64,000 bases of DNA from Thozetella sp. PMI_491 (lineage: Eukaryota; Ascomycota; Sordariomycetes; Chaetosphaeriales; Chaetosphaeriaceae), in NCBI GenBank assembly GCA_021432635.1, contig MU270016.1:1975264-2039263 (forward strand), in the 5' to 3' direction. A program made the position numbers and the translations under genes. Positions 31,700 to 34,600 of the stretch are shown piece after piece; position 1 is the first letter of the stretch; each line of letters starts with the position of its first letter. Below the pieces are notes generated by a model. That model was not told where the DNA came from and did not search any database. It was given only the letters and a program-made list of their open reading frames with translations.

Positions 31700-34600
31700 C
31701 TAACCCTTGTTGCGGTCAAGAAAACCCCATAACACTTTGTCCGTCCAGGTACCAAAGAAGCAGTGATCCAGCATGTTGACCCACCAGCCATAGCCTTGTG
31801 GTGATACATGGAGATTCCACTGCAGGACGTTGAGGAATACCAATTCCAGTTTGAGGAGCTCAGAACTGGGCAGTCCGCATATCTTTGTCCATGCTCGAAC
31901 GGAATAATTCCTGTCCTCCAGCATCTTCAATGCAACCCTCAACGATGTGAGAAACATTCTCCGAGGATCGTGGACAAACTCGATTTCTCCCCTGGTCTTC
32001 AGCTCTTCCATACTTTTGGCGCATTCCAAAGTTTGGGTTTTAAGAAGCGCCAGGTAATATAAAGCCAACTGGATAGCAGAGTAATCGGCTCTGGACCGTC
32101 TAAGAATATCCCGTACAAAGCCATCCAGTGGCATGGCTCCCTGGGTTGGCTGTAGTAAAGCATCTGGCCATATATCCTGGAGTAGTCGCGTAGTCAGGGC
32201 GACAAGGCCGTCAGTTGGTACGTTGGCGGGGCCCGCCGATGCCGCGTGTTGAGGAGCACCGTCTGTGACTTTTATATTATCATTGGTGTCTTCGTTAAAA
32301 CCCCATTCTGCAATTTCTTGGACTGCTTGCCGAACACTGAGTGGTACTCTTGGACCAGGCTGAGATTTTCTAGCCTCAGTTCTAGGACCGAGCACCGGAG
32401 GATGTGACTTCTGAGGGTCTTCGAGATCCTGCCCCTCTGGAATACGCTTCAATGCACCAGCGCGGAGGAAGCACTCAAAGACGGTGAAAAGGGCCGCATG
32501 GCGTACGGAATGACCAGCAGACTGCCACCAACCATCGACATGTGCTGACAACGAGAGCATGGCGGTCACCGCACTCGGAAAGCCCCTCCTTGTGGCCTCA
32601 CGAAAGAACCCGATTATGATCCGGCGAGTCAGGGGGCTGAGGCTGGAATTTTGCGTGACATTCTGTCCCTGTTCATTCCCATTACTGGGGTGCTCGGTTT
32701 CCGAGTCACGAATATCTTCGAATCGTAAGAAGCCCTGCATAACCGCCAGCTGCGCGTGGTCTTGGATTGCTGCCCGTACGACACCATCATTTGCTGCAAG
32801 GGTAGCACAGAAACGGACTAATGGCTGATTTTCTAAATACTGTGCTGCCTTAGCAATGTCGGTAGTCTCAACATCTTGAGATCTGAATGGCACAGGCGCG
32901 TAAGTGCTGTACGATAAGGGCAGCGCGATGTTGACGTATCGACTCGCAGCCCCTTGTATTAGAGCTGCGGCTTCTTCTGGTGTGAATGCGAGACTTCCTG
33001 CATTTTCCGAGTGCATCAGGAACTCTCTGGCCGTTTGATGCATCAGTTGGATGATTGATGTTGCGGCTGTGCCAGAGCGCTTCCCATCCTGGTCTGGTAC
33101 CTGAATAACTTCCACGAACGGGCCGCACAGCTTCTCGATGATACGACGCAGCTCCGACCATGATTTAGCCGGAATTCGATTTCTCTCTATGAGACTGTAG
33201 CTGGCATTCTGGTAGTCATTTGCCTCAATCTCTTTGCTGCTGGGAACCGCAAGGGCGTCCCAAAGCTCTCCGAGCGTGAAAGGCTTGATCTCACTTGCCG
33301 CGCTAATCCACATGAGGGCGTGTCGTACTTTCGTCAACCCGTTTTTATCGCGTCGTTGCTGGAGGTCTTGAATGAACTGCGTGTAGAATTCGTCAAGTTC
33401 AGAGGGCATCCGCTTCGCTCTCTCGCGTATCTCGGCAAGTGACAAAAACCCTTCTCTTGCTACTGCCATGTTTAATAAATCGAAGACCAGGAGAACCCAG
33501 AGCATAACTCCATCAGACTGCTCAATAATTCCGTCGCAGAGCTGCTGAAGCTCGAAAGTCTCCCAATTCTGGGCTTGTTCGAACTGCTGTTGTCCCGTGG
33601 CCTCGTTCGGTAAATACGCATCCATAATTATGTCGTCCTCATCAGGCTCGGAATCGTCGGTTTCCGTGTGAACGTCAATGTCGACATCTATCCCGTGCAT
33701 AAGGCGCCTTAGAGTTTCACATCTCTTGAGGACTACCTCGTAGATATCCTTTCTATTTTCTTCCTGGACGGTGATCTTGCGTGACTTCCAGAATCGCCGT
33801 TCAAGGAGACGAACTGGTCGTGTCACTACGAGAAATTTCATATGCGAGCCTGAAATCTGGCAGAGGCTTTCCACTAGCTGCAGGATCGAATCATCGCTCG
33901 CTTCATCAACCGCGTCTATCACAATGAGGACATGTTGGGGGGACTCGGCAAGCCGTTTCAGCAGTTCGACCAACTCGTCCATCGTCCAGCTTCTCTGCGG
34001 GCTAGGGGAGGCTGCTCGGTATGTTTCCTTGTACACATCGAACAGTTCCGGTTGTTGGGCCAGAAACTCATGGAGTACAGCTTGCAGAAGGACCTGGTGT
34101 TTGACGAATTGCTCGCCCGACCTCTTGCTATAGAACCAGGAAGAAAGTAAACCAGCCTGTCCAGTTCCAGGGGCTGGTTCATTTGGTGGGGTATGTTGGA
34201 AGGAAGAATGGCCCTGAAGTGTTGTAACGATGTGTTTTGCAAGGACGGATTTACCGCTACCCGGCTTTCCGACAATAGCAAGACAGTCACCCGGCTGGTC
34301 TCTCCAGGATGCGAATTTTGGGTGGTTCCATATCCACTCGTTGGTGCCTTCGATGGTGGGCGCTATTTCATCTCTCCTGGTCTGGATACCTGGAACGGCA
34401 AGTGACTGGCAGCATTCTATATTTCTTGTTAACTTGACTTCTGTCGCTGATATCTGAACTAATGGGGTATGCACCTTGGAGCTCGGATGCTAAACTAATA
34501 GCAGGGATACCTTGTAATTGCTGTGAAAGCCAGGGGATCGGCTTTCCACCAAGGAGAACAGAACATTCTAGGTTAGGTAGGGAAGGATTCGGAGTGGCCA

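Follow-up and report, generated by a model that had tools for sequence, protein, structure and literature searches.

Whether an NLR-like receptor of a fungus can end in a cyclin, and what such an end would be for, is the question raised by a locus of Thozetella sp. PMI_491 (order Chaetosphaeriales; genome of 72.3 Mb). It lies in the terminal 64 kb of contig C2 (MU270016.1), the whole stretch of DNA analysed here and referred to as the window. On the minus strand, the frame 31700-34489 runs for 929 codons without a stop or frame change and leads from a NACHT ATPase to a C-terminal cyclin box, with the motifs GKPGSGKS, VLIVIDAVDEA, FVRDILRRSRADYSAIQLAL, RRMFLTSLRVALKMLEDRNY, SVRAWTKICGL, and ELVFLNVLQWNLHV. 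An earlier note, made from the letters of this DNA, had proposed an NLR-like NACHT protein with a Pcl/Pas1-type cyclin at its C-terminus, both spanned by one exon so that the fusion would not depend on splicing. The open frame bears this out, as do the Pfam matches on it to NPHP3_N (aa 48-224, 95.5 bits vs. a cut-off of 24.8), NACHT (34.7 bits vs. 26.7; Walker A and B both present), and Cyclin PF08613 (aa 843-893, 30.1 bits vs. 21), and a match of 113 bits to a Pcl5 profile (119 cyclin domains) over the entire box (aa 760-906).

Gene model of the receptor

The features of the locus, from its 5' side, are as follows.

35687..36275, minus strand: SesB-like alpha/beta hydrolase exon, 5' boundary tentative (DUF676 match, borderline)
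35440..35614, minus strand: exon with the last part of the hydrolase domain (ADH motif), preceded by intron 35686-35615, which the deposited model (P0001) also has
35314..35373, minus strand: short exon between introns 2 and 3, as in P0001
34475..35251, minus strand: exon with a NACHT-like stretch lacking Walker A (weak; NPHP3_N 15.7 bits, below the cut-off of 24.8)
31700..34416, minus strand: last exon, with NACHT, helical region, linker, and cyclin (start from comparison with P0002; frame open to 34489)
33818..34348, minus strand: NACHT/NPHP3_N NTPase with Walker A GKPGSGKS and Walker B VLIVIDAVDEA (Pfam; Foldseek matches of the model are AAA+/STAND)
32459..33817, minus strand: winged-helix/helical region, common to cyclin-less relatives (alignment; GPIID_WHD 20.1 bits, below the cut-off of 27)
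32180..32458, minus strand: predicted disordered linker joining the receptor body to the cyclin (93 residues with pLDDT <50)
31772..32212, minus strand: Pcl5/Pas1-type cyclin box, ORF aa 760-906 (Pcl5 HMM, 113 bits; PF08613 within; AF2 model)
31811..31963, minus strand: Pfam Cyclin match, aa 843-893, with V852, K855, D859, E882, W891, and L893 (Pfam; presumed Pho85-docking positions)

Once four GT-AG introns, each 58-72 bases long (35686-35615, 35439-35374, 35313-35252, and 34474-34417), are spliced out, a single frame of 1438 residues extends from the hydrolase through the cyclin. We considered that the frame might break between the hydrolase exons and rejected this, the gap being an ordinary GT-AG intron of 72 bases that is present in P0001 too. 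A fifth intron (36342-36276) at the 5' side is tentative, and our exon-intron modelling of the locus did not locate the start codon. For the last exon, the most probable start is 34416 rather than 34458, the position given in the earlier note, because intron 34474-34417 joins SELQ-ECCQSL exactly where P0002 has SEYQECCTSL; the continuity of NACHT and cyclin is unaffected by this choice.

The deposited model of the locus (P0001, GQ53DRAFT_801351) ends without the cyclin because of predicted introns: it splices out 100 bases at 32893-32794 and later shifts frame again (window 32601-32893). The stretch removed aligns as protein in P0002, P0003, P0004, and P0008. An alternative transcript spliced like P0001 may exist. 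Automatic gene models can thus hide such tails, and those of other NLRs are perhaps hidden likewise.

At the N-terminus, DUF676 scores 20.4 bits on the exon frame, just over its cut-off of 20.3, and 18.0 bits (under the cut-off) on the spliced piece; the exon contains GHSLGG, which we take to be the hydrolase nucleophile motif. Given a SesB-like hydrolase upstream, the full protein is likely to have the order hydrolase-NACHT-helical-linker-cyclin. Where Thozetella has the hydrolase, the Diaporthe proteins P0008 and P0009 have GG(S/T)YGD(H/Y)TRIHQG-like letters (residues 20-50), a stretch that to our eye recalls amyloid signalling motifs, and N-terminal domains have perhaps been exchanged within this receptor group. 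A Walker B-like VVDEL also occurs in 34475-35251, ahead of the intact NACHT, and P0008 and P0009 are long there too.

The best Foldseek matches of the NACHT model are Cdc6/ORC, 8bob, and NLRC4 (AAA+/STAND), at low TM-scores (0.16-0.28 by query). The linker corresponds to model residues 653-745 (ORF aa 678-770) and overlaps the start of the cyclin match. Pfam found no C-terminal ANK, TPR, WD, or HEAT repeats in the receptor frames; we therefore class the protein as NLR-like and its C-terminal end as non-canonical, a form accepted in the text available from PMC12258605. The full-length structure model has a mean pLDDT of 67 and a poor cyclin part (the tail is present in only 3 of 20 alignment rows), and we therefore draw no domain arrangement from it. 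Elsewhere in the window are a HET-domain gene (PF06985, 120.7 bits; 19494-21572, minus strand), ~10 kb from the receptor, and a 611-codon fungal frame (25992-27824, minus strand) with a T5orf172 domain, which we take to be GIY-YIG-like.

Identity, distribution, and origin of the cyclin tail

When isolated, the window tail scores 118 bits with the Pcl5 profile, compared with at most 6 bits for shuffled tails (2000 shuffled, 1322 given a score), and chance similarity to a cyclin was rejected on this ground. Among solved structures, Pcl10 is the sole match by sequence at E up to 1 (E 0.0016), and a profile of the window tail with those of the two relatives described below matches Pcl10 (1.9e-6) and Pho80 (0.002). 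The AF2 model of the cyclin (pLDDT 87.6) has Pho80, cyclin Y, and Pcl10 as its best fold matches; none of the PDB rows from Foldseek is below E 0.001, the best being 3.8e-3. An NCBIfam scan of the tail gave no match, and none was found in phage records. The profile search and the fold comparison that the earlier note had named as checks thus both point to a cyclin, and the box is predicted to adopt a cyclin fold like that of Pho80 and Pcl10.

A search with the full-length protein, in which the 8000 candidates with the most words in common were scored, returned 38 proteins. Of these, P0001 is the deposited model of the locus itself and P0028 an ordinary Pcl5, which leaves 36 receptor relatives. 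Two of the 36 carry the cyclin tail: P0002, a NACHT-linker-cyclin protein of Cercophora newfieldiana (Sordariales), and P0003, with the same layout from another source; they are 46% and 44% identical to the window protein over 96% and 95%, respectively. Full-length P0003 scores 16.3 bits with PF08613 (under the cut-off) and P0002 has no match, and the tails scanned alone match Pfam Cyclin in three of three cases at E up to 0.1. The remaining 34 relatives score at most 1.6 bits or receive no score with the Pcl5 profile; several of them are fragments (e.g., P0006, P0007, and P0018) and thus uninformative on the presence of a tail. As the same protein occurs in P0002 and P0003, the fusion is no accident of one assembly; it is real and conserved in three sources. 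The window tail alone as query retrieved no homologue at E 0.01 (746 candidates), and with the Cercophora tail, P0002 itself was the sole fusion by precomputed Pfam labels among the best 120 of 1083 matches.

Ten cyclin-less relatives (P0004, P0005, P0008-P0011, P0013, P0016, P0021, and P0022; 10 of the 17 in the NACHT alignment) span the FTV-like segment that precedes the linker and end 53-123 residues past its start, whereas the three fusions continue for 262, 248, and 228 residues, through linker and cyclin. Because these relatives end early, the cyclin was probably added to the end of an existing receptor, loss from the end being less likely.

The closest non-self match of the P0002 tail is a hypothetical PF08613 protein (47% identity, E 5e-32), the second a named G1/S-specific cyclin Pcl5 (E 7e-32), and many further matches among the best 120 of 1083 bear the name Pcl5 or pas1. 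We built a cyclin tree of 39 domains (the three tails, 30 of the 119 Pcl5 domains, P0028, the copies on contigs C69 and C1 of Thozetella, and three outgroup cyclins), in which the tails form one clade (100/99) among Pcl5 domains; all three are on long branches, with a program warning, and their exact place within Pcl5 is therefore unsure. The receptor tree with the cyclin columns removed (n=20; P0001, P0015, P0019, and P0023-P0038 left out, being patatin, ankyrin, or distant rows and the plain Pcl5 P0028) also unites the three fusions (100/100). The agreement of the two trees points to a single capture event, with a Pcl5/Pas1-type cyclin as its source, either before the split of Chaetosphaeriales and Sordariales or followed by transfer between them, two histories that three members do not separate. 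The tail cyclin descends from the Pcl5/Pas1 family.

In an integrated decoy, the sensor-end domain is expected to be a copy of a host gene that the genome still has, and this is the case here: an ordinary Pcl5 gene (P0133) is kept on C69. A second Pcl5-like copy (C1:2522166-2522597; L011 1342-2010) is short and strongly diverged, with a 222-codon frame and 108.5 bits with the Pcl5 profile; it was rejected as the origin, being 30% identical to the tail, compared with 39% for the C69 gene, and standing apart in the tree. More distant cyclins of the Thozetella genome (at most 43.5 bits with the profile) were rejected likewise. In a viral fold library, the leading named rows are giant-virus cyclins and cyclin-like proteins, with a best E of 2.6e-4 at 16% identity, which beats the best PDB row, but the libraries differ; a viral donor is not likely, because the window and Cercophora tails have a median identity of 38-47% to fungal Pcl5.

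Divergence of the tail and its possible role

Between Thozetella and C. newfieldiana, NACHT is the best conserved of the four parts compared (55% identity, 152/274), ahead of the helical part (49%, 162/333), the cyclin (43%, 62/143), and the linker (28%, 21/76). The ordinary Pcl5 box is 86% identical (131/153) between Thozetella and Cercophora sp. LCS_1, which is a different Cercophora from that of P0002 in a genus described as polyphyletic in the available part of PMC12258605. Among 92 Pcl5 sites that are at least 95% invariant, the tails of the window, P0002, and P0003 keep 52, 61, and 45, respectively, and all three keep 30. In the same order, they match the Pcl5 consensus at 12, 15, and 10 of 20 positions in helix 3, at 9, 11, and 8 of 12 in helix 4, and at 7, 9, and 7 of 24 in helix 5, a contact helix; in the loop before helix 3, only 1-3 of 24 positions agree. 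This loop (LG, then L/I and E) and the WW...L...G.WT end are features specific to the tails and absent from Pcl5.

K855, D859, and E882 are invariant in all 41 rows of the cyclin alignment, and K855 with E882 presumably corresponds to the K-E pair of cyclin A. In a modelled complex of PCL-1 and PHO85-1 of N. crassa, V273, D280, F312, and L314 are given as contacts in the text available from PMC9815767. Their counterparts, placed by spacing through a Thozetella cyclin of similar type (C6) and not through the N. crassa sequence, are V852, D859, W891, and L893 in the window tail, V, D, W, and L in P0002, and V, D, F, and L in P0003. The tails have diverged fast yet kept key presumed Pho85-docking positions; the fast evolution may also reflect relaxed constraint.

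In fungal NLRs, the C-terminal end is thought to sense, the nucleotide-binding domain to oligomerise, and the N-terminal domain to act (PMC12258605, in the part available). On this scheme, the cyclin would be the putative sensor and the SesB-like hydrolase the putative effector. We think it somewhat more probable than all other readings together that this is an NLR-like receptor with an integrated cyclin that stands in for Pcl5 as sensor or bait. Tethered flexibly at the sensor end by its linker, the cyclin would mimic the cell's Pcl5, alone or with a Pho85-type CDK. The trigger would be a protein of a mycovirus or competitor directed against Pcl5-CDK, or an incompatible partner in hyphal fusion, that binds or displaces the tail; NACHT would then oligomerise and switch on the N-terminal hydrolase, which would kill or arrest the cell. 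Among the matches listed, no attacker of fungal Pcl5 was found in the literature, and we know of no candidate pathogen factor that targets it. As the putative docking positions are kept, both an inert bait and a CDK-holding cyclin are allowed, with the weak match of helix 5 a caution on the latter.

A working cyclin is the alternative that fares best, though we consider it unlikely: the tail would recruit a Pho85-type CDK, the receptor or its neighbours would be phosphorylated, and the nutrient or cell-cycle state would gate the immune switch. It would account for V852, K855, D859, E882, W891, and L893 being kept or conservatively replaced in three tails that have otherwise changed widely, and for the near-invariant sites shared by all of them; the poor agreement of helix 5 with Pcl5 argues against it, and the docking positions may serve the core of the fold too. 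A death receptor that holds a Pho85-type CDK might conceivably read the Pcl5-Pho85 nutrient/G1 axis, and fire when a virus, a competitor, or a foreign nucleus disturbs the complex. If true, CDK control would be wired directly into an NLR, for which we know of no precedent.

Slightly less probable still, the tail may be a generic protein-binding platform that replaces ANK, TPR, or WD repeats and serves in allorecognition, its partner being a polymorphic host protein with no relation to CDKs. Fungal NLRs usually bind their ligands at the C-terminus (PMC12258605, available text), the tail diverges fast, and Pfam finds no repeats, but the K, D, and E that never vary on the CDK face count against this reading. 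That the fusion is neutral or decaying and has no function would fit the long branches in the Pcl5 tree, and is nonetheless improbable in view of the open frame and of tail features common to Chaetosphaeriales and Sordariales. Two adjacent genes, or an artefact of assembly or read-through, would agree with a deposited model that stops ahead of the cyclin, but this is very improbable given 929 uninterrupted codons, a single protein in two other sources (on which ground two genes in one exon were rejected), and an extra intron in P0001 that cuts sequence aligned in P0002 and P0003.

Comparison with known systems

The earlier note had suggested that the architecture would be new. This holds for fungi in so far as no description of a fungal NLR-cyclin was found in the literature among the matches listed, with supplementary tables as a place that may hold one; it does not hold more widely, since Cyclin_N and Cyclin_C are known in plant NLRs and cell-cycle kinases in fungal NLRs. 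The main text makes no mention of "cyclin" in PMC12258605, PMC9815663, or PMC4986451, whose supplementary lists may contain it. Other candidate reports were set aside: the available part of PMC11412873, which has both NACHT and cyclin terms, treats the CDK regulatory subunit and NACHT families apart; PMC7145615 and PMC6709784 have "cyclin" only within "cycling"; and PMC10197012 has a single match, in its reference list.

Among receptors, the closest comparison is with cyclin-less P0004, P0005, and the Diaporthe proteins P0008 and P0009. They have NACHT and the helical region up to the FTV segment in common with the fusions, but end 92-103 residues past it, compared with 228-262, and carry no cyclin signal. 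Among cyclins, it is with the Pcl5/Pas1-type Pho85 cyclins (P0133, 39% identical to the window tail, 58/150; PDB 2pk9 and 4krc for the wider family). The tail resembles them in its single box, key CDK-docking positions, and predicted fold, and differs in its new loop and C-terminal end, in lacking the Ser-rich C-terminal region of Pcl5, and in being joined to a receptor. The retained CDK face makes sharp and simple binding tests possible.

A survey of 82 Sordariales genomes counted 185 non-canonical domains in 378 NLRs; C-terminal kinases of CHK2/PRD-4 type, nine in number and apparently from one capture, are regarded by its authors as putative decoys (PMC12258605, as far as its available text goes). 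As in the fusion, a NACHT receptor appears to have captured a conserved cell-cycle regulator once at its C-terminal end, with the donor gene retained and the clade restricted; unlike the fusion, the domain is a kinase and not a cyclin, a complete canonical tripartite architecture is present besides, and the members are Chaetomiaceae and Podosporaceae (same source and extent). Integrated domains hint at pathogen targets, and a captured Pcl5 cyclin, after the CHK2-type kinases, would point to the cell-cycle and nutrient machinery of fungi as a target of mycoviruses or competitors.

For plants, a 2016 survey names Cyclin_N and Cyclin_C among the domains integrated into NLRs (PMC4759884, Table 1, the part available). 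The NLR-IDs of Eucalyptus grandis and Medicago truncatula resemble the fusion in joining an NLR to a cyclin, a likeness by description only, and differ in being NB-LRR proteins with cyclins of the Cyclin_N/Cyclin_C type, known from a proteome-scan listing (PMC4759884, same part). With cyclins listed in NLRs of two plant families, the same type of bait may thus have arisen twice, a possible convergence.
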